A DNA stretch of 64,000 bases, taken from the NCBI RefSeq assembly GCF_017357425.1, contig NZ_CP014571.1, forward strand, positions 3,224,001 through 3,288,000, in the 5' to 3' direction. This document shows positions 41,032 to 62,551 of this stretch, one piece after another. Below the pieces are notes generated by a model. That model ran no database searches. It saw nothing but the letters and a program-made list of their open reading frames with translations, and was not told where the DNA came from. Source of the stretch: Arthrobacter sp. D5-1. GTDB taxonomy: Bacteria > Actinomycetota > Actinomycetes > Actinomycetales > Micrococcaceae. The position numbers and the translations under genes are program-made. Positions within the stretch are counted from its first letter, which is position 1. Each line of letters starts with the position of its first letter.

Positions 41032-42008
41032 CTATGAAGCTTGAACCGTTAGGCTGCCCTGGCCGTCACTGGTTTTGGCCTCGCCGTCCTTGAGCTTCCC
41101 TTCTTCATCTTTTTCGTCTTTGGATTCCGGATCCGTTCCGAGCTGCTCGAACAGGCTGTCCTTGATCGCGTAGATGAACCGAAGAGGCTCGTTCCCCGCC
41201 TGCCAGTTCGCGGAAGCATTGACGAGGGTGTTCAGTTCCCGGAGCGAGTCGAAGATCTGCGGATCCTCGAAGCGGTCCAGATCTTCGAAGATCACGAACT
41301 TCGGCTTGACGGTGTCAAAGAAGGCAACGATCTCGTCAAGAAAGCTGTCAAAGTAGGTGGTCGGGCCTTCGCCCAGGGCGATTTTCGTGCCGGCAGTCGT
41401 GACCTCCGAGACGATCCGGTCGCCGATGATCCACCGTGCCGCCCACAGCGACGCCAGAACAAGGCCGAATAGCATTCCAGCCCGTACGAGGTACCCGGGC
41501 AAGTCCGCTGCGGCGTCCGGCCAGCCGGGCCCGGAACGCACCCCCAGCACCCACAGAAGCCCCAGACTCACAACACTGACAAAGAGGGCGTGCAGGAACG
41601 CCCTGAACTTGGTCGCGGGTTTGGGCCGGGCGAACCGGGATCGACGGATCGTCCCTGGTGCCAACCGGTAGACAAGTTGCTTGACCAGTCCCTTCTGGAT
41701 CCGGTTGGTCAGGTCCTCGTCATCTTCATCCGGGCCGAGGGTGTTGATACTGATGCGGATAGTGTCTTTGTCGTGCTTCTTCTGAAAGTTGTCCAGCACG
41801 CTGGACTTGCCGGCTCCGTAGCGGCCGGTGAGGGCGATGTTACGGTTCCTCTTGTCGAGGACCGCCTCTTCAATGTGCCGCACGTAGATCTTGTGCTGCC
41901 ACTCTTGAATTCCGGGGCGAGGCTGTGCAGCTTGATAGGCTGCTTCGGCGCCACTGGCTCCTGCAGCTGCTTCGGCGCCTCGGGCTGACTCGGACGTTCC
42001 TCGGCCAC
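41032..42008 (-). pseudogene. YobI-family P-loop NTPase, frameshifted and C-terminally truncated
   Basis: The conserved N-terminus starts at GTG 42008 (MAEERPSQPEAPKQL ... IKLHSLAPEF). The frame then fails near 41905: the rest, from YVRHIEEAVLDKRNRNIALT with Walker A GRYGAGKSS, is in another frame (41883-41032). A single missing base after GAATTC would join them. Two transmembrane helices lie near residues 95-160 of the second part, and the Walker B is KFVIFEDLDRFEDP. Family members are about 1,000 residues or more; here the product ends shortly after LRFIYAIKDSLFEQLG, so the C-terminal two-thirds are lost. These membrane NTPases are of unknown function. Confidence 0.72.
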
Positions 42009-42139: not shown

Positions 42140-42158
42140 TCACACGTTGAAGCGGAAC
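42140..42158. repeat. attL core
   Basis: TCACACGTTGAAGCGGAAC, identical to 61355-61373. Outside lies the ancestral sequence that originally followed ychF. Confidence 0.88.
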
Positions 42159-44165: not shown

Positions 44166-44201
44166 AGAAGGGTCCGTTCCGCTGTGGGAACGGACCCTTC
44201 T
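44166..44201. terminator. Bidirectional terminator
   Basis: Perfect 15-bp arms AGAAGGGTCCGTTCC and complement, loop GCTGTG. Located between the cargo gene at 43474 and the convergent TAC operon. Confidence 0.88.
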
Positions 44202-44272: not shown

Positions 44273-44719
44273 CTAATCGGCGCTCTGGCTCTCAGAGTCT
44301 CTCAGCCATAGGTCGTCAGGGACGGCCGGCAAGAACGTCGGGCGTAGACCCAGCCTCCCTGTCATCTCCGAGATGAACTGCCGGTGATATGGATAAGATA
44401 TCCGCGCGGCGGCCACGCGTAGCTCGTCATCAATATCTTGTAAATCGTCCGACTCCGAGACAGAGAAATTTACCTTATATGTGCATTTAAGAGTTACTGC
44501 TGCTTCATCATCGGAATCGAGAAGCTCCACAGTTGTACTGGTTAAACGAAGCAGTGGATAGCCTTCTGCGTTCGAGCCAGAAAATTGGAACCGCACGCGT
44601 TTGGTTCGTGGGAGATCGAACGTATTTGTCTCAACAGACATTTCATCGAGTAAGACGTTAGTAACTCGGTATTTCAGGTCATCGGGGTTCAGGGCTACGG
44701 ACAGCTCTTCACTTGACAT
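44273..44719 (-). CDS. SecB-like chaperone of a toxin-antitoxin-chaperone (TAC) module
   Basis: 148 aa, acidic. SecB features are visible: VTLKCTYKVNFSVSESDDL in the beta-sheet, then ISYPYHRQFISEMTGRLGLRPTFLPAVP, which corresponds to the conserved SecB stretch around LFPYAR...LTV/GGFPPL.LPPVN. Actinobacteria lack a general SecB, and solitary SecB-like proteins in them belong to TAC systems such as Rv1957 of M. tuberculosis. It would fold and protect the antitoxin. Its start overlaps the antitoxin stop by 11 bp. Confidence 0.82.
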   Translation of the reverse strand: MSSEELSVALNPDDLKYRVTNVLLDEMSVETNTFDLPRTKRVRFQFSGSNAEGYPLLRLTSTTVELLDSDDEAAVTLKCTYKVNFSVSESDDLQDIDDELRVAAARISYPYHRQFISEMTGRLGLRPTFLPAVPDDLWLRDSESQSAD

Positions 44720-45296
44720 GCGTTTCCTCCTTTCGGGAACCGGGAGCAGAGGGATTCAAAGGAGCATCCCAATTGACCTCATCCCAATCGATTTCCCACG
44801 TATCTAACGCTGGCCGACGGGTAACGGCATGGAGTCCGGTGGTTTCATAGAAAGCTTCGTTGTCTTCGACCGGCACCAGGAAATCGATCGTGGCCGTGCT
44901 CACTCCGCTACGCCCTCCACGCGTTACCGTTACCGTGTCGGTGTGCATCTTTTTGCCCCGCCTCCGATTCCTGCGAGTTTTAGGGTCCCGCAGTGGAGGC
45001 ACGGAGTCATCAGCGGGAACGACGAGAAGTTCAACACTGTAGCCGATAGCGCGCAGCATCTTCGCGAAGGTGGAAACTTGGACATTTCCATTCCCACTGA
45101 GGATTTGGGATACTCGACTTTCACCCACATTGAGTCGTTCTGCTAAGTCCTTTTGGGAAATTGAGCTTGCTTCCAGCGCGCGGTGAAGAACGGCCCTAAC
45201 TTGCATCGCCAAACGAGCAGCGGCGAGCCCTTGCTGCCCTACAGGCGTCGACTCTCGCTCCTGGATGAGCGTTTGCGAACTCTGGCTATTTGTCAT
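44709..45296 (-). CDS. XRE-family antitoxin with C-terminal extension (HigA-like)
   Basis: 195 aa. The HTH is at about residues 44-85 (SSISQKDLAERLNVGESRVSQILSGNGNVQVSTFAKMLRA). The last ~100 residues form an extension with an aromatic, acidic patch (EIDWDEVNWDAP), the position and character of a chaperone-addiction (ChAD) region. It probably represses its own operon and neutralises the toxin. It overlaps both neighbours by 11 bp. Confidence 0.82.
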   Translation of the reverse strand: MTNSQSSQTLIQERESTPVGQQGLAAARLAMQVRAVLHRALEASSISQKDLAERLNVGESRVSQILSGNGNVQVSTFAKMLRAIGYSVELLVVPADDSVPPLRDPKTRRNRRRGKKMHTDTVTVTRGGRSGVSTATIDFLVPVEDNEAFYETTGLHAVTRRPALDTWEIDWDEVNWDAPLNPSAPGSRKEETHVK

Positions 45297-45822
45297 GAAG
45301 CAGATCCTCCTGCCTAACTATTCTTGTGAACTTCTTGTCCGGCTCGCGGGTTTGATTTCCATCTTTGCCCCAAAAGCATGCGAGACGAATGTGTTCATCA
45401 AATATCGGTATTTCATCCCAGTCCGGGTTCTTTGACAGGCTGAATCGGCTCGTCTTAGCTACGTAGTGGCCCTTGCCGTCAGTGTCGTAGAAAGCTGCCC
45501 GAAGCCAGCTAGCACGAAACTCCCAGACCCCTTGCTCGAGTTGATTCAACTCGTGCAGGACAGCAGGCTCACCGTTTTGAGCAAAATATTCGCAAATTAC
45601 GAAGATCTCATCTATCAAATCAATCTGGTCAAGATCGGGAAGGGTCTTAGAGTGTCTATTCTCAAATTTGCCCTCCTTGAGCTCGTCCCAAGCTGTCGAA
45701 GAAGGTGACGTTACGCCGTCACTTCGCAGACCACACTCGATGACGTGCTCTGCGCCCTGAACGATCTTCCTTCGCACCACTTTACCCAATCGTAAACCCC
45801 CAAGGGAGAAACTAACAGTCAC
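45286..45822 (-). CDS. HigB/Gp49-like toxin of the TAC module
   Basis: Up to 178 aa from GTG 45822; GTG 45780 or 45777 gives a start closer to the family and leaves room for a CATAAT -10 box near 45830. The C-terminal half follows the HigB/RelE layout: helix AVLHELNQLEQGVWEFRA, strand LRAAFYDTDG, strand IRLACFWGKDGNQTRE, then a basic tail. HigB toxins cut mRNA on the ribosome. Similarity is weak by eye, so the toxin family is less certain than the operon type. It is the first gene of the operon. Confidence 0.68.
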   Translation of the reverse strand: MTVSFSLGGLRLGKVVRRKIVQGAEHVIECGLRSDGVTSPSSTAWDELKEGKFENRHSKTLPDLDQIDLIDEIFVICEYFAQNGEPAVLHELNQLEQGVWEFRASWLRAAFYDTDGKGHYVAKTSRFSLSKNPDWDEIPIFDEHIRLACFWGKDGNQTREPDKKFTRIVRQEDLLHDK

Positions 45823-45920
45823 GCTTATTATGCGCGAAGCAGGGACTGTAGTGCTTACGCCGCGCAGTCATCGCCCCGCAGATCGTCCCAGGGGCCACGA
45901 GCACGCCAAACAGCAGCGGA

Positions 45921-46252: not shown

Positions 46253-46687
46253 ATGCGGAACATGAGGAAAAATTGGGGGCTCATCCTGCTCGTGGTTGTT
46301 GGGCTGCCAGGATGTTCAACTGCTGCTAGTGAGTCCGCGCCGGCAGTATCTGCCCCGGCTCCTAGCCAAACTTCATCCACTGCTGTGGCACCTCTGTTAG
46401 CTTCGCCTGCTCCAACCGTGACGCTCCCGCCTGAATACTCTGACGAGAGCGCCCGGTCGAAGTTTCTCGAAGGCGTAAAGAAGAACTGGCGCGGTGACGC
46501 TATGCCCACCGATGATGCATTAGTACAAAGGGGCGCTGAGTCCTGCGCACTGTTCGGTCAAGGCCTCACGATGGGCGAGATAGGTGAACGCGGTGGTTCC
46601 ACCGAAGTGGAGTGGGACAACGCGGGCGCTATCGCCGTGTACGCAAGCCGGACCTTTTGCACTGAGCACAACACAGACAACCTTTAG
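46253..46687 (+). CDS. DUF732-like lipoprotein
   Basis: 144 aa from ATG 46253. Lipobox VVGLPGC (Cys near residue 21), Ser/Ala/Pro-rich linker (about 25-65), then a small helical domain with two Cys (GAESCALFG and RTFCTEHN) spaced as in DUF732. Cell-surface lipoproteins on temperate elements often act in superinfection exclusion; that role is inference. It overlaps the convergent tail gene by four bases. Confidence 0.7.
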   Translation: MRNMRKNWGLILLVVVGLPGCSTAASESAPAVSAPAPSQTSSTAVAPLLASPAPTVTLPPEYSDESARSKFLEGVKKNWRGDAMPTDDALVQRGAESCALFGQGLTMGEIGERGGSTEVEWDNAGAIAVYASRTFCTEHNTDNL

Positions 46688-47460
46688 GGAATGATCTTCC
46701 TGAGGTTCCCGGATCCGTCCATGTAGACGTTCGGGGTGACTCCGGTCGTGGTCCCAGGGCTAGTGACTCTTAGTCCGCCTTGAACCTCCACAGCCCCTAT
46801 GAGGTCGATGGCAGCGGCCTGCAACCCTGCTTTGCCACTCCTGGTGAAGACAAACGAGTTCCCAGCGGGGCCAGTGAGCTGCGGACCCGACGCCGTGCCC
46901 GACAGATAACCGCCCGCGCTAAACTGCACGCTCCCGCCGAACAATCCGGGATCGATTGTCATACCGCCTGCCTTAACCTTGCCCGTGGTCACGTTCAGAT
47001 CATTCTTGAGCGTCGTCACACCCTCAACAGAAAGCGTGCTGGTGGTCTTCATCGGCCCGTTAACATTGAAGTCACCCGTAACAGTGGTGTCACCCGCAAC
47101 CGTTGTCGTGCCATTCAAGTCAGTCGGGCCAGTCTGCGTGAAATGACCGGCAGAAGTGATGTCACCAGTGATCGTGGTCGGCCCGTTGATATCCGTTGGC
47201 CCGTTCAGGTTCACGTCACCTGTCGCCGTGAACGTGCCCGTCATGTTGATGACCCCAGAAGCGTTCAGCGTCCCTGAGACGGTAGCGGAACCGCTCACTG
47301 ACAGCCCGCCATTTTCAATGGTGATCCCGCCGCCGCTATGCACGCGGATCCCACCGCGCCCCACGGCCATGTTGTTCTGATTCGAGGCAGCTTCCAAGGC
47401 TCGCAGGCGCCGCCACAGTTCGTCAAGGTTGCCCTGTGCCTGGTTATTGATTTTTCCCAT
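46684..47460 (-). CDS. Repetitive tail fibre/minor tail protein
   Basis: 258 aa. Short N-terminal coiled coil (LDELWRRLRALEAASNQ), then a long series of beta-helix-like repeats with the pattern T-x-T-G-D-V/T-x-N/T-G (TGDVNLNGPTDINGP, TGDITSAGHFTQTGP). The C-terminal knob is GNLRKIIP. This layout is that of actinophage fibre or base-plate proteins. It starts two bases after the tail protein gene ends, so both are co-transcribed. Confidence 0.75.
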   Translation of the reverse strand: MGKINNQAQGNLDELWRRLRALEAASNQNNMAVGRGGIRVHSGGGITIENGGLSVSGSATVSGTLNASGVINMTGTFTATGDVNLNGPTDINGPTTITGDITSAGHFTQTGPTDLNGTTTVAGDTTVTGDFNVNGPMKTTSTLSVEGVTTLKNDLNVTTGKVKAGGMTIDPGLFGGSVQFSAGGYLSGTASGPQLTGPAGNSFVFTRSGKAGLQAAAIDLIGAVEVQGGLRVTSPGTTTGVTPNVYMDGSGNLRKIIP

Positions 47461-47462
47461 GG

Positions 47463-48548
47463 CTAACCTCCAATCTGCTGGAACTGCAAGGTGATCCAGT
47501 CGCGGTCAAAGTCGAACTGGATGAGCCGCCAGTCATGCCAGCCAGCGGATAGGAAGCGCAGCCCGGAGGTCTTGAGATGTGCATTGCCGCCCAAAATAAA
47601 CTGCCCGATCTTCACATCGCCGCCTGCCGGGATCTTGAAACTGATCTGCTGCACCGGCTCGTTCGCCGCGTTGAGGGCGCCTGTCACACGTGATTGGAGC
47701 TGCGCCGCGTTAGATGTGCCTGAGAAGCTAGGAACACTTTCCAAGGCTGGTGCGGTCCCGGTGAATGAGTCGGCAGCCCGGACTAGGATGTCTTCCCCGG
47801 ACCCCTCACCCCTGCCGATTACCCGGTTAGTTACGTCTTCCGCCGTGGTGTCGAGTTTGAGCCCGTGAACTTCCATGTGAGTCGCTGTCGCGTCCCATTC
47901 CCACTCGCCCGAAGTCAACGAGCCGGAACGCATCACCCACCGGAACGACCCAGTGCCGCTGTCCCACTGCACATCAAAGTCGATGTCTGGTCCGCCGTCA
48001 GTGTCCATGAGTTCCTGCAAGGCATCGGCAACAGACTCAAACTTGTACCCGTAGTAAGTCCGTGAGTGAGGCCCCGCCACATCAGCGTTCATGATGAGCG
48101 GCAACGCGTACCGTGCCGCTGGTGTGCCGTTCATGCCGCGGGCAACCACCAGGTTCGCCAGAGTGGCTAGCGTCCTGTTGCTGTAAGTCATAGCCGGCGC
48201 GGACTGGGCGCCGTCGCCACGCACACTAAGCACGTGCCGGCGTTGCCACAGCCACCAAATGTCCTGATGGGTGACTGTCACGGTTTGCTCATCCTGGTCC
48301 TCTGCAACGCTTGTTATGAACCCGGCATAAACCGCGTTCCCATCCCACTCAGCAACAAGGATCCGCTCAAGCGGGGTAATGGATGCAGCCGTGACGACCT
48401 CAGCAACAGACGGATCACCGACCTTGAATGTTGCCGTGCCACCAGTGCCACCGTTGAGCCGGCGCCCACCCGTGAAGTTGAACGCAGGCAGCTCAATCTT
48501 GCCGCCCCACGTACCTGTACTAACGGAAAAATACCGCCATCCAGCCAT
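47463..48548 (-). CDS. Siphovirus minor tail (Gp37-like) protein
   Basis: 361 aa from ATG 48548 with GAGGA seven bases upstream. The N-terminal segment WRYFSVSTGTWGGKIELPAF and the motif ITSVAEDQDEQTVTVTHQDIWW match minor tail proteins of actinophages, which form the distal tail next to the fibre. It follows a terminator, so tail genes have their own promoter. Confidence 0.78.
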   Translation of the reverse strand: MAGWRYFSVSTGTWGGKIELPAFNFTGGRRLNGGTGGTATFKVGDPSVAEVVTAASITPLERILVAEWDGNAVYAGFITSVAEDQDEQTVTVTHQDIWWLWQRRHVLSVRGDGAQSAPAMTYSNRTLATLANLVVARGMNGTPAARYALPLIMNADVAGPHSRTYYGYKFESVADALQELMDTDGGPDIDFDVQWDSGTGSFRWVMRSGSLTSGEWEWDATATHMEVHGLKLDTTAEDVTNRVIGRGEGSGEDILVRAADSFTGTAPALESVPSFSGTSNAAQLQSRVTGALNAANEPVQQISFKIPAGGDVKIGQFILGGNAHLKTSGLRFLSAGWHDWRLIQFDFDRDWITLQFQQIGG

Positions 48549-48586
48549 TTGTGATTCCTCTATCTCATGATTTTGGGTACAAAAAA

Positions 48587-48603
48587 GCCCGCCATGAGCG
48601 GGC
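48587..48603 (-). terminator. Terminator before the tail genes
   Basis: GCCCGC/GCGGGC stem with a CATGA loop; on the minus strand it is followed by TTTTTT. It ends transcription of the terminase region. Confidence 0.85.
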
Positions 48604-48632
48604 AAACATAGGTACTGCTATTCAGTTTTGGA

Positions 48633-48887
48633 CTACCGTTGGTTGTGCTTCCCAAAGTCCCTAGGTCGGAAAGTTCCATCCAGAACCGCAGCCCATACTT
48701 CGACTTCTTCACCCCAGCCGTAATTGACGCCTTGGATCTTCACTCGTTTACAGACCCCGCCTTTGAACCAAGCTCGAGCAACCCCATGCGGAGTATCAAG
48801 GGATTGCTGAGTAACTCGATTCGGATCGGAATCAGCAGGCTTGACGGGGGCAATGGCGTTACGCCTCGCTAAGCGCCTACTGCTCAT
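48633..48887 (-). CDS. Small basic protein downstream of terminase small subunit
   Basis: 84 aa; start ATG 48887 overlaps the terminase small subunit stop by 11 bp, so it belonged to the same operon. Basic, with a beta-rich centre (ARAWFKGGVCKRVKIQGVNYGWGEE). In a complete phage the large terminase gene would be expected here; this is not it. Function unknown. Confidence 0.65.
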   Translation of the reverse strand: MSSRRLARRNAIAPVKPADSDPNRVTQQSLDTPHGVARAWFKGGVCKRVKIQGVNYGWGEEVEVWAAVLDGTFRPRDFGKHNQR

Positions 48888-49196
48888 GTCGGATCACCCA
48901 GCCAAGAGACAGCATTCCAGCAGGTGTCAGACCAAGTTGCCCGCCTAGATGACGCATCTCTTGAGCCTGCCAAGCACTAGCCCCACCCTCGTAGACCGCA
49001 CGGGCATGACACACGTAGGCAGCAACAGCAGGGATAAAACTGTCATCCCACTCATTCGCTTGCGTGTCAATGGCCAGTTGTTTCTGCCCATGGACGGCCA
49101 CTAAAAGTGCCCGCTGGTGGCCAGTAAAACTGCCCGGTGATGGCCAACAGATCTGCCCACTGATTGGTTCGGCGGGATTGGCCATCGTGGGGTTGA

Positions 49197-49985
49197 TCAG
49201 TTCAGTCGGGTTACTCCTTTCCCGGCGAGGGCCTGGGTGAGGCGGACGGAATCGCCGCTGGTCTGACAGACGTGGGCGTGGTGCAGCAGCCGGTCAACGG
49301 TGGCGGTTGCGAGGGTTTTGGGCATGAGCTCGTCGAATCCGGCGGGGTGGAGGTTGGAGCTGATCGCGATGGACCGTTTTTCGTAGGCTGCGTCCACGAC
49401 CCGGTAGAGACCTTCGGCGGCGTCCGTGGCCACCGGCAACAGGCCAATATCGTCAATGACCACGAGCTCCGCGCGGAGAATCCTGGCCACGGCCCGGGTG
49501 ACGCTGTCGTCGGTTCGGTGGGCGCGGATCAGGACGCCGAGGTCTTCGAGCCTGAACCAGGCGACCCGCATTCCGGCTTCAACGGCCTGCTGGCCGAGGG
49601 CTTCGAGGAAGAACGTCTTCCCGGTCCCGGAGGGCCCGCAGACGACGAGGTTTTCCCTGCGGGTGATCCATTCCAGGGTCCGGAGGGCCTGCTGGGTCGG
49701 GGCAGGGATGGAGGACGCTGCAGGGTCCCACGCCTCGAAGGTCTTCCCGGTCGGGAAGCCTGCTGCTTTGCGGCGGGAAGCGAGCATGGACCGGGCCCGA
49801 CCGGCGGCTTCCTCGGTGAAGAGTGCTTTGATGACCTCGGTTGGTTCCCACCGCTGGGCGCGGGCGGTCGCGATCAGGTCCGGTGCCAGTGCACGGGCGT
49901 GGGGCATTTTCAGGGACCGCATAAGGGCTTCCAGGTCCGCCGGCAACGGCGGAGCGGCGGTGTTGGCTGTGGTGACGGGGCTCAT
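49197..49985 (-). CDS. istB: IS21-like helper ATPase IstB
   Basis: 262 aa from ATG 49985, overlapping the istA stop (ATGA). DnaC-like AAA+ ATPase: Walker A CGPSGTGKTFF near residue 115, Walker B ELVVIDDIGLLP near residue 175. It activates target DNA and stimulates IstA. Confidence 0.93.
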   Translation of the reverse strand: MSPVTTANTAAPPLPADLEALMRSLKMPHARALAPDLIATARAQRWEPTEVIKALFTEEAAGRARSMLASRRKAAGFPTGKTFEAWDPAASSIPAPTQQALRTLEWITRRENLVVCGPSGTGKTFFLEALGQQAVEAGMRVAWFRLEDLGVLIRAHRTDDSVTRAVARILRAELVVIDDIGLLPVATDAAEGLYRVVDAAYEKRSIAISSNLHPAGFDELMPKTLATATVDRLLHHAHVCQTSGDSVRLTQALAGKGVTRLN

Positions 49986-51535
49986 CGGGCCTCCTCCGGC
50001 GTGATTTTGGTCGTGGTGTTGGTTGTGGTGTTCAGGGTCGGGTTGCCGATCGCGGCCCACGCGCCGGTTCCCTGAGTCAGGGAGGTGGCTTCGTTGGCCG
50101 CGTGGGTGGTCGTGCGGCGGATGTTGGCGTTCAGGATCGAGGCGAGGTCCTGGTGCGCGAACCGGCCATGTAGTGCGGCGTCGCCCAGGGCCCGGTCGAC
50201 CTGGTCGGTGCCGGCGATTTTGGCCAGCGTGACGGCTTCTGCCATTTTCACGTTGATCCGTGCGGTCCCGGCCGCGGCGGCCTCCATCAGCCAGGTCCTG
50301 GCGCCTTCGCCGATGGCCAGGAACGCTGCCTCGTCCGCGCTGCGGGCCCTGACCTCGTAATCGCCGGGGACCCTGGTCCGGGTTCCCGGGAAGTGTTCGT
50401 CGTTGATGGCGGGACTGCCGGGCCGGGCCCGATCATGGCGGGCGACTTCGACGGGCCCTGCAGTGCCGTGGTGGACGATGATGACCTGCTCGCCGGGCCC
50501 GGTCCCGTGGGTGCGGACGAACACCCGGGCTCCGAGCAGGTGGGCCGGGACGGAGTACTGGGCGTTTTCGAAGGTGACCATTGGGGTGTTCTCCGGAACC
50601 ATGCGGGCGAGTCCGAAGGCGACCGTGTGGGCGGTGTCCGGGATACGGTGCAGCCGCGGGGCTTCCTCGGCGAGCATGGCTGCGGGTTTGCGCCGCGTCG
50701 TCCGGTGCTCACGGTGATTGACCTCGTCCATGAACGCCGTGCAGGCGGCCTCGAGCTCGGCGAAGGTGGCGTATTCGTCGCGGAGGTTGGTGTCTTTGGG
50801 CACGAGGTCGGCCTTGGCGAGCTTCACGGACGCTTCCACCCCGCCTTTGGTGGCCGGGTCCGCGGGCTGGCAGGTCAGCACGGTCACCCCGTAGTGCCGG
50901 GCGAAGTCCAGGGTCTGCTGGTTCCGCACCGGGACCCCGGCAACGTGGGAGGTGGTCACGGTCTTCTCGTTGTCCGTGAGGACATAGGTCGGTGCTCCGC
51001 CGAGGATCCGGAAGCACCGGTCCAGGGCCGCGAACACGCTCGGCGCCGTCCTGTCCTTGAGCGGGATCACGATGCGGAAGCGTGAGAACGCCAGCCACGC
51101 CACGAACAGGATCGTCTTCACCCCGCCGATCCGTGGCCCGTCGCCGAAGTCGTACTGCAACCACATCCCAGGTTCAGTGATCCACGGCCGATGGACGCGG
51201 GTGTGGCCCAGCCGCCACGCGTCCTTGACCTGCGCAATCGCCCGGCGGGTGGAGCGCTCCGAACCCGCATAGCCCAGAGCGAGGAGCTTCTCGTGGGCCT
51301 TGTCAGCGCGGATCCGGCCCTTGGAGGCTTCCACCCATTCTTCGATCTTGGGCAGGAACGGGTCGGTGACCCGGCCCCGTGCCGTCGGTTCCCCGATCGG
51401 CCGGCCTGCGTCCCGGGCGGTCACGTGTTTGGCAACAGTGTGGTGCGAGCAGCCCGTGAGCTCCGCAGTGGCGCGCAACGATCCGGTCAGGTCGTAGGCA
51501 GCAAGAATTTCCATGATTTCTCCGTCAGACTTCAT
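49982..51535 (-). CDS. istA: IS21-like transposase IstA
   Basis: 517 aa from ATG 51535 with GAGG upstream; ATG 51580 would add 15 residues. N-terminal HTH (GSLRATAELTGCSHHTVAKHV), DDE core with Asp in LQYDFGDGP near residue 120, Asp in TYVLTDNEKT and Glu in KGGVEASVK, then a C-terminal domain. It appears intact. Confidence 0.93.
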   Translation of the reverse strand: MKSDGEIMEILAAYDLTGSLRATAELTGCSHHTVAKHVTARDAGRPIGEPTARGRVTDPFLPKIEEWVEASKGRIRADKAHEKLLALGYAGSERSTRRAIAQVKDAWRLGHTRVHRPWITEPGMWLQYDFGDGPRIGGVKTILFVAWLAFSRFRIVIPLKDRTAPSVFAALDRCFRILGGAPTYVLTDNEKTVTTSHVAGVPVRNQQTLDFARHYGVTVLTCQPADPATKGGVEASVKLAKADLVPKDTNLRDEYATFAELEAACTAFMDEVNHREHRTTRRKPAAMLAEEAPRLHRIPDTAHTVAFGLARMVPENTPMVTFENAQYSVPAHLLGARVFVRTHGTGPGEQVIIVHHGTAGPVEVARHDRARPGSPAINDEHFPGTRTRVPGDYEVRARSADEAAFLAIGEGARTWLMEAAAAGTARINVKMAEAVTLAKIAGTDQVDRALGDAALHGRFAHQDLASILNANIRRTTTHAANEATSLTQGTGAWAAIGNPTLNTTTNTTTKITPEEAR

Positions 51536-52022
51536 ACAGGGCCTCTTCCTGGTTCGCTTGGTGCGCTTAGACACCGTCATCAAACCCCAGGGAGAGGCTC
51601 CCACCGCTTAAGACGCGGTCGGTTCAGTAAGGAAGTGGGCAGATCTCATGGCCACCATCGGGCAGTTTTACTGGCCGTCAGTGGGCACTTTCGTGGCCGC
51701 CTATGGGCAGTTTTTCATGGCCGCTAACACTTGCGGTGATTTCCATAGATTTCGCCACAATTTGCGGTCTTCTGGGGACCAGGTTCCCGATTTTGGGAGC
51801 TGTGGCACAGGAAAGTCACAGCCGTCGGCAGGCAATTCGATGAGTCCAGAACGCGCGCCAGGACTGCGATGCCGGGAATTCGGTTTGGTTGGGTTAGGTT
51901 TCGGGCCAGGCACTCTGGCCTCCTTTCAGTTGGGTCTATCCGCTTGCCGCGCACCTTAAAGCCCTCACCGGCGGGTAGGAGCAGGGCACCCCTTAGGAGG
52001 GAGGGGGTGGGGTATGCGCCCT

Positions 52023-57385: not shown

Positions 57386-57672
57386 TCCGCCGCCGCGTCC
57401 CCTCGGTTCGTTGGCTGGTTGGTGTCGATGACCTCTAAGAGCTTCACAAGCTCGCTGTGGAGGTCGGATAGGTGTTGCAGTGCCTCGGACTCGGTCAATC
57501 CCGTCGCTTTGGTCTGTGTTGAGTTGAGCAACATCGGCGGCGGAAAGAAGATCCCATTTTTGAGTGTGTGACCGTAGCCCACCGTGTCCCCACCGTGTCC
57601 CGGCACACTGGGGAGTGTCTGAGTGTGTGTGTCCCGTTCCGATTCTTTAGAACGGGACACGCTTACACTCAC
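57382..57672 (-). CDS. Small helical protein downstream of ATPase
   Basis: 96 aa. The C-terminal half is coiled coil (LTESEALQHLSDLHSELVKLLEV). Four-base overlap with the ATPase gene, which suggests a partner role in replication. Confidence 0.68.
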   Translation of the reverse strand: MSVSVSRSKESERDTHTQTLPSVPGHGGDTVGYGHTLKNGIFFPPPMLLNSTQTKATGLTESEALQHLSDLHSELVKLLEVIDTNQPTNRGDAAAE

Positions 57673-58751
57673 GCTGCGATCAGTTCTGTTGAAGGCTTAG
57701 CCCTAAAGGGCTTTATGAGGTGATGCTCGTGAGCGTTCCGGGCGCCAGGGATGATGCTTAGGTATCCGTCTGCTTCGAGGAGGGATATAGCGGCACGCTT
57801 GTTCTCGTCCTTGCCCGAAACCAACTGGTTGATCTTGCGGAAGCTGGGTGGTGTAGGTGCATCTTCTACACACTTGGAAATAGCCTCCATCAACTCGACT
57901 GGGAGGCCGTTGCTGTCAGCCTTCCTCTGCGGTGGATCGACAGTGAACAGGATCCTGTTGGAAACCGTTGAATCGATCGTCACTATGGCTGCTTCTTGCG
58001 TGCGGTCACTCTTGCGCCACTCTCCAGACATCGGACGGACCTGACCGGGCCTGTCTTTGCCAACTCGCAGGGCTACCTTGCCGATCATTCCCACGCCCAC
58101 AGGACTGATGATTTCGATCATGTACGCGGCGCCTGTGAGATACGACATCTTGGCCTGAGCGCCGATAGCGAAACGCCCCCTACCCTCCGCGGACTTCGTT
58201 ACGTGATCCACGACCACCACCGCGGCGCCGGTCCTGGCAGCTATCTGGCGTGGAACCTTCCGGCCCCATGCGGTCACTTCATCGTTATCAATCGACTTCA
58301 CCCCGAAGACCGCGAAGGCCTCAGTTACGCCGTCAATGACAGCCAAGGTGTACTTGTTTCTCAGGAGCTGTTGCCACTCTGAGTTCTCATCGGCAAAAGA
58401 TACGGGGTCTACATCGGGCCGAATGTAGTCGAGGTTGTCTTTGATGTCCTCGGGGCTAGCACCCAGCATCAAAAGGCGGGCAATTACTGATGCTGCGTCG
58501 GATTCGAAGTCGATGTACAGGCAGCGGTTGCCAGCCATGATCTGCCGTGCCGTTTCGGCTTGGGCAGTCATGCTCTTGCAGGATTCGGATTCCCCGTTGA
58601 AGGCGTGGACCATGCCGGCGTAGAGCAGGCACCTTCCATCCGTCCGGGCCATGATTGACGGCCTTAGCGGCTTGTGAGCCCCATTGAGGTATGCGGTGAG
58701 GTCTAGGGGTTTCCATGACGGGGGTGTTGGGAGCAGTTGGTCATTCGGCAT
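57669..58751 (-). CDS. RepA/RecA-like AAA ATPase, putative replication helicase
   Basis: 360 aa from ATG 58751 with AGGA upstream. RecA-like fold resembling RepA (DnaB-type) helicases: Walker A near residue 53 reads GESESCKS, where the second Gly of the canonical form is replaced by Cys; Walker B is TLAVIDGVTEA; VVVVDHVTKS follows. C-terminal domain is winged-helix-like. It probably unwinds the element origin. The Cys substitution is unusual. Confidence 0.8.
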   Translation of the reverse strand: MPNDQLLPTPPSWKPLDLTAYLNGAHKPLRPSIMARTDGRCLLYAGMVHAFNGESESCKSMTAQAETARQIMAGNRCLYIDFESDAASVIARLLMLGASPEDIKDNLDYIRPDVDPVSFADENSEWQQLLRNKYTLAVIDGVTEAFAVFGVKSIDNDEVTAWGRKVPRQIAARTGAAVVVVDHVTKSAEGRGRFAIGAQAKMSYLTGAAYMIEIISPVGVGMIGKVALRVGKDRPGQVRPMSGEWRKSDRTQEAAIVTIDSTVSNRILFTVDPPQRKADSNGLPVELMEAISKCVEDAPTPPSFRKINQLVSGKDENKRAAISLLEADGYLSIIPGARNAHEHHLIKPFRAKPSTELIAA

Positions 58752-59666: not shown

Positions 59667-60239
59667 ATGTCAGTTAGAGATGAGCAGATCGGCCAAAATA
59701 TAGTGCGGTTGCGGGGTGAACGTTCCCAGCAATGGGTTGCAGACCGGATGCGAGAAAAGGGCTGGAAGTGGGCGCAAGCAACTGTCTGGAACGTTGAGAA
59801 AGGCGAACGTCCTTTACGCCTAGCAGAGGCAGAGGGGTTGGCGGATATCCTGGCGATTAGTGTTGAGCAGATCCTGCAAGCTCCCGATGTGCTTGGGCAC
59901 GAGGATCAACTCCAAATCTGGACAAGGGACATCGAAAGCTCGTTCCTTAAGATCGCCGACCTGACAGAGGAACTGCTTGGACAACTGGAGCTGTTGGGTT
60001 ATGCCCTGGAAGACCTGCCTGACAGCATGGACTCTTCGAACTACTGGGTAGATCTAGCCGTAAAGGCGCAACTCAAAACCCCCGAGCAGGCTGTGGTGAG
60101 GGGCCGTGCGGAGCGTGAAATGCAAGCTAGAGGGCTCAAACCCGTCGATGTGATTGCCGAGTTTGGCTCTGTCGAGAATTGGTTCAGCACCAGCACTTCA
60201 TCTCGGGAGGGCAGAGATGGCGAGCATCCAGAAGCGTGA
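59667..60239 (+). CDS. XRE-family repressor of the element
   Basis: 190 aa from ATG 59667. N-terminal HTH_XRE (QQWVADRMREKGWKWAQATVWNVEKGERP) and a C-terminal helical part with no peptidase motif, so control may be by partner protein rather than self-cleavage. Overlaps the integrase gene by 23 bp. As the lysogeny repressor it would act at the operator upstream. Confidence 0.82.
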   Translation: MSVRDEQIGQNIVRLRGERSQQWVADRMREKGWKWAQATVWNVEKGERPLRLAEAEGLADILAISVEQILQAPDVLGHEDQLQIWTRDIESSFLKIADLTEELLGQLELLGYALEDLPDSMDSSNYWVDLAVKAQLKTPEQAVVRGRAEREMQARGLKPVDVIAEFGSVENWFSTSTSSREGRDGEHPEA

Positions 60240-61323
60240 GAATGGTTCATGGCGAGCCCGTTACAGAGATGAAGCCGGCAAGGAACATGCGCGGCACTTC
60301 CCGCGGAAGATCGACGCTCAGCGCTGGTTGGACGAGGTAACCGCGTCCGTCGTCACTGGCAGCTATGTGGATCCGAAGTCGGGCCGCGTCACCCTAGCAT
60401 CGTTCTTTGAAGATTGGTCCACTAGGCAGCTCTGGGCGGCTGGAACGTCCAAGGCCATGAGCTTAGCTGTCCGCTCGTGCACGTTCGCTGATGTGGAATT
60501 CCGCAACCTGAAACGCTCACACGTTGAGGCGTGGGTGAAGAAGATGAGTCAGGACGGTTTAGCGCCCGGAACGGTCAAGACTCGCTATAACAATGTCCGC
60601 TCTGTGCTGCGTGGTGCACGCAATGACCGAATGCTGGCTACGGACCCCGCTGACGGCGTCTCGCTGCCCCGTGCACGCAAGGCCGAGCACGCGATGAGCA
60701 TTCCCTCCCCCGCGGACGTTGGCGCCCTCCTAGGGTCTGCTGAGTCGTGGTTCAAGCCGTTCGTTGCAATGTGCGCTTTTGCAGGCCTGCGCTTGGGTGA
60801 GGCAGCGGCAATCCAACTCGGAGATATTGATTTCCTGCGCCGCACGCTTGCTGTTCAGAGACAGGTCCAGCGGGCAGGCAAGGGCGAGGTGAGCATCACG
60901 TTGCCAAAATACGGTTCTGAGCGTCTGGTGCACATCCCTGATGGGCTCGTGCAGATCCTCGCCGCCCATGTGCAGCACGTCGGCGTGCATGGAGAGCAGC
61001 AATGGTTATTCAGCGGAGAGCAGGGTCTACCGCCGCATCAGAACACTTCGGGCTATTGGTGGCGCAAAACAGTAAAGGCCGCAGGTCTTGAAGCTGTGAG
61101 ACTCCATGACCTGCGGCACTTCTATGCGTCAGGGTTGATTGCTGCCGGCTGCGATGTCGTCACGGTTCAGCGGGCGTTGGGCCACTCCAAGGCAACGACC
61201 ACACTTAACACCTATGCGCACCTTTGGCCCACCGCCGAAGACCGAACCAGGTCTGCTGCCGGCGCCATGATGGATGACGCCCTCGGCATTTCTGCGGACT
61301 CCCTGCGGACTCAACAAGCCTGA
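60217..61323 (+). CDS. int: Tyrosine-family integrase
   Basis: 368 aa from ATG 60217 with GGGAGG upstream. N-terminal arm-binding AP2-like domain (ENGSWRARYRDEAGKEHARHF), SAM-like core-binding domain, catalytic domain with Arg in AFAGLRLGE, Lys in VSITLPKYG region, HDLRHFYAS (His, Arg) and Tyr in LNTYAHL. It recombines attP with the 3' end of ychF. Two TGCGGAC boxes overlap its last codons. Confidence 0.95.
   Translation: MASIQKRENGSWRARYRDEAGKEHARHFPRKIDAQRWLDEVTASVVTGSYVDPKSGRVTLASFFEDWSTRQLWAAGTSKAMSLAVRSCTFADVEFRNLKRSHVEAWVKKMSQDGLAPGTVKTRYNNVRSVLRGARNDRMLATDPADGVSLPRARKAEHAMSIPSPADVGALLGSAESWFKPFVAMCAFAGLRLGEAAAIQLGDIDFLRRTLAVQRQVQRAGKGEVSITLPKYGSERLVHIPDGLVQILAAHVQHVGVHGEQQWLFSGEQGLPPHQNTSGYWWRKTVKAAGLEAVRLHDLRHFYASGLIAAGCDVVTVQRALGHSKATTTLNTYAHLWPTAEDRTRSAAGAMMDDALGISADSLRTQQA
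61292..61309 (+). promoter_or_regulatory. Two integrase arm-type boxes, right end
   Basis: TGCGGACT at 61292 and TGCGGACT at 61303, 11 bp apart, identical to the boxes at the left end, 46 bp from the right core. They lie within the C-terminal codons of int. Confidence 0.65.
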
Positions 61324-61354
61324 CCCCAGCAAACAGGCCGGAAAACGGGCTAAA

Positions 61355-61373
61355 TCACACGTTGAAGCGGAAC
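61355..61373. repeat. attR core
   Basis: Same 19 bp as 42140-42158; it comprises the last 16 coding bases and the stop codon of ychF. Integration therefore leaves the gene intact. Confidence 0.9.
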
Positions 61374-62440
61374 TCCACCACATCGCCGTCGGCCATCACG
61401 TACTCTTTACCTTCGATCCGGACCTTGCCGCGGGACTTTGCCTCCGCCATGGAACCGGCGTCGATCAGGTCATCGAAGGAGACAACCTCGGCCTTGATGA
61501 AGCCTCGCTGGAAGTCGGAGTGGATCACGCCGGCTGCCTGGGGAGCGGTGTCACCCTGACGGATGGTCCACGCACGGGTTTCCTTGGGGCCTGCCGTGAG
61601 GTAGGTCTGCAGGCCGAGGGTGTGGAAACCGACGCGCGCCAGCTGGTCGAGGCCGGATTCGGACTGACCGTTCATTTCCAACATTTCGCGGGCCTCTTCC
61701 TCGTCCAGTTCCACGAGGTCGGATTCCAGCTTGGCGTCAAGGAAGATTGCGTCAGCAGGGGCAACCAGGGCACGGAGTTCGTCCTGCTTCGCCGGATCGC
61801 CAAGGATGCCTTCATCCGCATTGAAGACGTAGATAAACGGCTTGGCGGTAAGAAGGCCCAGCTCCTTGAGGTGACCCATCTCCAGCTTGTCGCTCTTGAT
61901 CGAGGAGAAGATGGTGTCGCCGCGTTCCAGGACAGCCTGTGCCGCCTTGATGGCTGCGAGCTCGGCAGCTTCCCGTTTCTTGATCTTGACTTCTTTTTCG
62001 ATGCGCGGAATCGCGTTCTCGATGGTCTGGAGATCTGCCAGGATCAGCTCTGTGTTGATGGTCTCCATGTCGGAGCCCGGATCAACCTTGCCATCGACGT
62101 GGATGACGTCGGGATCGTCAAAGACACGGACGACCTGTGCAATGGCCTCGGCCTCGCGGATATTCGCCAGGAACTTATTGCCCAGGCCTTCGCCCTCGGA
62201 TGCACCCTTCACGATGCCGGCGATGTCCACGAAGGACACCGGAGCGGGAAGCATCTTCTGGGAACCGAAGATTTCGGCCAGCTTTGCCAGGCGGGGATCC
62301 GGAAGATTCACGACTCCGACGTTGGGTTCAATCGTTGCGAACGGATAGTTCGCTGCGAGCACCTGGTTGCGGGTCAGTGCGTTGAAAAGAGTTGATTTGC
62401 CGACGTTGGGCAGTCCGACGATGCCAATAGTAAGAGCCAC
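61355..62440 (-). CDS. ychF: Redox-regulated ATPase YchF (OLA1)
   Basis: 361 aa from GTG 62440 ([20 protein letters not shown]); ATG 62446 would add two residues. Obg-family G domain with G1 GLPNVGKST and altered G4 (YVFNADE) that prefers ATP, coiled-coil arm ([20 protein letters not shown]) and C-terminal TGS domain ending EFRFNV. The C-terminal codons are part of the att core. It acts in translation and stress responses. Confidence 0.95.
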
Positions 62441-62551
62441 GAGCATTGATTCTACCCGTTGGAACCTTGTCCTTGCTTGTTACTGCCCACGATGCGCGCC
62501 CACCGCGGTGGCCTCACCAAAACTGTCGTACCCCTGTGACAAGGTTGCTGC

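Follow-up and report, generated by a model that had tools for sequence, protein, structure and literature searches.

We analysed a window of 64,000 nucleotides from the soil-type bacterium Arthrobacter sp. D5-1 (contig NZ_CP014571.1, positions 3,224,001 to 3,288,000) and focused on a predicted toxin-antitoxin-chaperone (TAC) operon carried by an integrated element. Its three open reading frames (ORFs), all on the minus strand and all open, encode a toxin (45286-45822), an XRE-type antitoxin (44709-45296) and a SecB-like protein (44273-44719). As an earlier note on this DNA had described, consecutive genes overlap by 11 bp each, toxin and antitoxin at 45286-45296 and antitoxin and chaperone at 44709-44719. 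A Shine-Dalgarno-like GGAGG precedes the antitoxin start and the chaperone start. A terminator-like signal lies 3' of the chaperone gene on the same strand (44166-44201), with a 15-bp perfect stem, a 6-nt loop and a T-rich tail. The overlaps and the one shared terminator-like stem group the three genes as a TAC, and their co-transcription is predicted from the sequence. Just upstream of the toxin gene, an imperfect inverted repeat (45831-45866, 2 x 17 nt, 71%) occupies the expected place of an autoregulatory operator and is a candidate for one, though it may be due to chance. The GC fraction was 0.525 in the TAC, 0.582 in the element and 0.626 in window positions 1-32000. Rfam and tRNA scans of the whole window found nothing.

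The toxin had been described in the earlier note as HigB-like, of a weakly matched and possibly new family. Structure prediction and structure comparison revealed a RelE/HigB fold, with the model matching HigB over most of the toxin's length. Searches found 102 proteins of this toxin branch, including the window's own, all from actinobacteria where the record name tells the organism; few of the records are named, and those are mostly called 'hypothetical protein'. We aligned 83 sequences, the toxin of the window plus 82 from the set of 102, leaving out 19 proteins, mostly of unusual length, and the window toxin's own entry (P0001). The HigB pocket residues E, K/R, R and K were kept in 83, 83, 83 and 82 of the 83 sequences, respectively. 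The window toxin did not reach the Pfam cut-off for the Gp49/HigB family PF05973, which the toxin of a relative (locus L006) passed with 24.1 bits against 23.9; 40 of the 83 aligned sequences matched PF05973 at E<=0.01. As the toxin itself has no Pfam hit, we file it, on fold and profile, as a relative of PF05973 and not as a Pfam member. Of the earlier suggestion of a new family, one half holds: the branch is divergent and hardly named, but it lies within the known Gp49/HigB toxins.

On the minus strand, the toxin ORF gives 178 aa from GTG 45822, and the start is probably TTG 45789 (167 aa), because 33 of the 82 aligned relatives start at this residue, the commonest position (20 have an earlier start, which aligns at residue 1, and 29 a later one), because GGGGG lies 7 nt upstream of this TTG, and because residues 1-10 of the structure model have a predicted local distance difference test (pLDDT) score <50. 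Several residues are invariant in the branch: D113-T114, G116, R146, E172-D173 and D177 in 83/83 sequences, with G118 in 82/83. A segment at about 115-143, which separates two strands in the model, is apparently missing from the shorter HigB chains. Searching the single toxin sequence against PDB gave just three matches (E 1.1-1.2), none of them a toxin, and the toxin model had no match in a viral structure library at E<=0.001. Judging from the predicted fold and the pocket residues, the toxin would be an RNase of the HigB fold that should cleave mRNA after entering the A site of the ribosome, as reported for the M. tuberculosis toxin (PMC9098466).

The antitoxin (195 aa) carries an XRE/HigA-type helix-turn-helix (HTH) domain (HTH_3, residues 38-91, E 5e-9); it also matched PADLOC model PDC-M64C (E 1e-8) and, below that model's cut-off, the HigA model TIGR02607 (E 1e-4). 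The aromatic C-terminal extension claimed earlier was found as well: about 88 variable residues follow the HTH part (approximately residues 108-195, 44709-44975, minus strand) and contain W, F and Y, for example in TWEIDWDEVNW. This tail is a candidate chaperone addiction domain and would bind the chaperone; such domains are reported to differ in length and sequence (PMC5105189). Mean identities over the 45 pairs of ten loci were 39% for the toxin, 42% for the HTH part, 17% for the antitoxin tail and 19% for the chaperone; these ten come from 12 intact loci, with L002 (near-identical) and L009 (no SecB) excluded. Since the toxin and the HTH part stay alignable while the tail and the chaperone diverge, these loci offer material for the question of co-evolution between chaperone and antitoxin tail.

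The third gene encodes a protein of 148 aa whose AlphaFold2 model, built from 12 sequences, shows four strands and a long helix (pLDDT 75.5). A Foldseek search with this model gave SecB or Rv1957 in 19 of 19 hits at E<=0.001, indicating that the SecB fold named in the earlier note is present. Neither of the two findings that the note had named as refuting it, a third protein without this fold and a toxin without any toxin-like fold, was therefore made. The best PADLOC match was PD-T4-9_C, the CmdTAC chaperone (E 2.5e-6), and the profile match to Rv1957 had an E of 0.012. This gene was the sole match to PF02556 in the genome at E<=10, which agrees with the earlier remark that SecB is unusual in actinobacteria. 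According to a review, SecB outside the alpha-, beta- and gamma-proteobacteria mostly accompanies toxin-antitoxin (TA) modules (44/70; PMC4257090).

We then assessed how the three genes are distributed. A profile search of whole genomes found the toxin branch in 5/395 genomes of the family, 7/396 of the order and 9/394 of the class; these samples overlap, each count includes the window's own genome, and some matches are weak or split. In twelve distinct loci the toxin was full-length and not split (the window, L002, L003, L006-L012, L017 and L018, with L005 being the same contig as L003), a count that excludes split toxins (L013/L014 and L019/L024) and weak or partial matches (L020, L021, L022 and L023). 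In 12/12 of these, an HTH antitoxin and a third gene follow the toxin in order. This order is kept among relatives with 33-99% toxin identity and more distant ones, which argues that the arrangement is not due to chance. The third gene was SecB-like in 11 of the 12, eight by an iterated profile and three by profile-profile comparison. Run against 1102 ORFs, the iterated profile recovered the third genes of the window, L002, L003, L006, L007, L011, L017 and L018; at E<0.01 it additionally picked up the third gene in each of L020, L021 and L023, duplicates of the same loci and a remnant resembling SecB in L003/L005, and no other ORF. It missed the third genes of L008 (best E 0.026), L010 and L012, and the group of L008, L010, L012 and L013 matched SecB in profile-profile comparison with 90.3% (local) and 82.5% (global), against 0.3% for the DUF6941 protein of L009 as a control. 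The reading of L010 and L012 as two-gene TA loci without a chaperone was rejected, as both contain a 127-aa third gene. Among the ORFs inspected in L019 and L022, a SecB-like third gene was not recognised.

The mobile element claimed earlier is bounded by two identical 19-bp attachment (att) repeats, attL (TCACACGTTGAAGCGGAAC, 42140-42158, plus strand) and attR (61355-61373, plus strand), which coincides with the 3' end of ychF and includes its stop codon (ychF at 61355-62446, minus strand). The repeat is the sole direct repeat of >=13 bp between 61200-61520 and the remaining window. Between its copies, in an element of 19 kb, lie a tyrosine integrase that adjoins ychF (60154-61323, plus strand; PF00589 E 2e-21, PHROGs integrase E 2e-59), three HTH_17 proteins, a primase/helicase-like ATPase (57669-58751, minus strand; PHROGs DNA polymerase/primase E 5e-20, AAA_25 E 2.5e-6, 70% DNA identity to L002) and, close to the left boundary, the TAC. 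Arthrobacter sp. EpRS71 has this TAC too, with its three proteins 98-99% identical, between a repeat with one mismatch and a ychF that is 98% identical and adjoins the element there. The EpRS71 element is about 8.2 kb by its coordinates, and its integrase match beside the TAC covers residues 147-389 at 93% with one internal stop codon. The att repeats, the integrase and the EpRS71 copy, which is near-identical and sits in a smaller element at this site, indicate that the TAC is cargo of the element; as it is near-identical in the 8-kb and 19-kb elements, it appears to be retained while other element genes change.

The element is integrated and phage-related, and may be a phage satellite or a decayed prophage. 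Phage satellites of the phage-inducible chromosomal island kind have an integrase, regulators, a primase and few or no structural genes. Scanning part of the element's ORFs found the integrase, the three HTH_17 proteins and the primase, and also two tail-like ORFs within 46684-48605 (PHROGs); a megablast search of the whole element against phages found nothing. An insertion at 49197-51604, which we take to be IS21-type from its two-gene appearance, splits a small ORF into 48877-49185 and 51701-51913. This ORF is intact with 121 aa in L005, matches a PHROGs 'minor tail protein' weakly (E 0.0026) and, we assume, resembles a terminase small subunit. Two element ORFs also stand upstream of the TAC in L003, one of them weakly endonuclease-VII-like and one presumably packaging-like. 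At L008:1459-3266, in another genus, a more distant TAC (toxin 34%) directly adjoins ychF; the fetched L008 locus contains no copy of the att repeat with up to five mismatches, and a search of its genome for this integrase gave no relative at E<=1e-20. The 3' end of ychF, which holds the TAC in both the 8-kb and the 19-kb element, looks like a site where elements with TACs may land recurrently.

Taken together, we consider it very probable that these genes form a chaperone-controlled HigB-type TAC, that is, a HigBAC-type operon on an integrated phage-related element. In support of this, the analysis shows gene order, overlaps, the terminator-like stem, both predicted folds, the pocket residues, cross-genome co-occurrence and the att-bounded location. 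The HigA-like antitoxin would bind the toxin and probably also the operon's own promoter, and its long C-terminal tail would block its folding or survival as long as no SecB-like chaperone is bound to it. Protection of the antitoxin by the chaperone is reported for M. tuberculosis (PMC6377645). The chaperone of CmdTAC is drawn off by a phage capsid protein (PMC11618068), and HigBAC of E. coli is activated by the major tail protein of lambda, reportedly in the same way (PMC11980606). By extension from these two systems, the chaperone would be drawn away here, and the likeliest cause would be a structural protein freshly made during phage infection; the antitoxin would then be degraded and the freed toxin would stop translation and abort the infection. 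An anti-phage role of this operon is argued by analogy with CmdTAC and HigBAC; we rate its chances as about even.

The operon differs from its known counterparts in several respects. Compared with the M. tuberculosis TAC (Rv1955-Rv1956-Rv1957, HigB1-HigA1-SecB-TA), the toxin here is longer, includes an insert of about 30 residues, shows D-T-x-G as an invariant motif and E-D...D near the C-terminus and does not keep the equivalent of K99, and the TAC lies on an att-bounded element. The earlier comparison with CmdTAC (PD-T4-9) holds for the chaperone, through its best PADLOC match, but not for the toxin, which has a HigB fold whereas CmdT is an ADP-ribosyltransferase (PMC11618068). E. coli HigBAC is the closer analogue: it likewise joins a HigB toxin to HigA and a SecB-like HigC and is a TAC that acts in abortive infection, a likeness drawn at the level of the components. 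One such HigB has been placed in the gp49 family (PMC11980606). HigBAC comes from a different phylum, however, the toxin here is without a Pfam hit, and its trigger and defence role would be carried over by analogy. The HigBA system of S. pneumoniae is a two-gene system without a chaperone, and its toxin is shorter, with 119 residues in the chain (6af3/6af4).

A number of observations weigh against this interpretation. Pfam and NCBIfam gave the toxin no match at E<=1, and Q98 and K99 of the M. tuberculosis toxin correspond to N156 and Q157 here; as K99 is needed for toxicity in M. tuberculosis (PMC9098466), activity could be altered or low. The chaperone falls under the Pfam (SecB E 0.0028) and NCBIfam cut-offs, and its model fits SecB moderately (TM score 0.50-0.63 on the query). 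Among the third genes of L006, L007, L008, L011 and L013, Pfam at E<=10 gave SecB for L007 alone (E 0.021), and PADLOC at E<=1 gave one weak match (L006, E 0.029) for ten diverged third-gene proteins, including the DUF6941 protein of L009. L009 itself keeps the toxin and the antitoxin, with a DUF6941 gene (PF22091, E 4e-10) in place of SecB. Identities of tail and chaperone correlate weakly (Spearman 0.28, p 0.059, 45 non-independent pairs), so the idea that they track each other was rejected as a mere weak trend. A sigma-70-like promoter was looked for upstream of the toxin gene and none was found. Finally, tblastn with the toxin in phage and plasmid collections and searches of viral contigs with SecB and toxin profiles (two peptide patterns each) detected no copy, so the proposed defence trigger rests on analogy.

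The main rival to the anti-phage role keeps the same biochemistry and assigns the TAC to stabilisation of the element, in which loss of the element would kill or stall daughter cells that make no new antitoxin and chaperone, with no phage sensing. The retention of a 98-99% identical TAC in the roughly 8-kb EpRS71 element, next to a partial integrase with one stop codon, fits such addiction, whereas TACs tested in E. coli are reported to defend against phage (PMC9519451, PMC11618068, PMC11980606) and addiction by itself offers no reason for a chaperone. We regard this alternative as possible and somewhat doubtful, and both roles could hold; the operon probably serves either to halt infecting phages or to hold the element in the genome. 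That the operon has decayed into a silent remnant of a decaying prophage is rather improbable: the IS21-type insertion in the element with its split ORF, split toxin copies in two other genomes (G674 and G1012) and Q157, where 59/83 aligned sequences have K or R, would suit it, but the three frames are open, the toxin retains four pocket residues and all three EpRS71 proteins are 98-99% identical to those here. We give hardly any credence to the SecB-like gene being a general export chaperone that stands behind a TA pair by chance. It does have the SecB fold, but it overlaps the antitoxin gene and shares the terminator-like stem, a SecB-like third gene accompanies this toxin in 11/12 loci, its Pfam SecB score is below the cut-off, and the genome has no other PF02556 match.

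TAC, CmdTAC, HigBAC and SecB-linked TA systems are already known kinds, to which this locus adds a toxin branch that is uncommon and hardly named in databases. No description of this branch was found in the literature accessible to us, which mostly lay outside subscription journals and in which ychF and TAC were not searched together. As a prophage site ychF may not be new, as the available text of pneumococcus papers mentions ychF, an integration site and a prophage. In the same partial literature, TACs coincided with Arthrobacter in a lanthipeptide survey and with phage satellites in a virus structure survey. A bolder hypothesis, which we think unlikely as a whole, is that the toxins make up a HigB subfamily that is bound to TACs and has an altered active centre, in which the invariant D-T-x-G loop, R146 and the C-terminal E-D-x-x-(H/Y)-D motif would change the cleavage target or tie the toxin to a chaperone-dependent antitoxin; small phage-related elements would bring it to the 3' end of ychF as a weapon against phages, and SecB would have been swapped for DUF6941 in one lineage (L009) or more.

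The DUF6941 gene of L009 (L009:2516-2914) begins at the base right after the antitoxin stop codon, and a chaperone exchange is possible at this locus. PF22091 was present in 72/296 genomes of the phylum. DUF6941 as a general partner of such antitoxins was rejected: a search of 30 DUF6941 loci (L025-L054) with the antitoxin profile gave no ORF at E<=1e-4, so L009 stands alone.

Several relatives showed further variations. Just downstream of the intact TAC of L003, a second, partial SecB-like ORF with the YPYHRQ region (L003:5538-5771, equal to L005:3099-3332) is perhaps the remnant of another chaperone gene. The SecB-like protein at L017:98-1105 has 335 aa, about twice the usual length, as a chaperone fusion or extension. 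In L013/L014 (G674) and L019/L024 (G1012), the toxin gene is broken up across two frames and an antitoxin-like ORF is still open. The TAC of L012 lies one gene from an ORF that by eye resembles a type I restriction specificity subunit (L012:2775-3491), perhaps in a defence neighbourhood. In the window, outside the left end of the element, 41032-41883 encodes a piece of a YobI-like P-loop ATPase (PF20693, E 7e-62, covering 3-257 of 363 profile positions); it also has a match to PADLOC Tmn (E 6e-27, a model of 1273 positions) and is perhaps a truncated defence-type gene.
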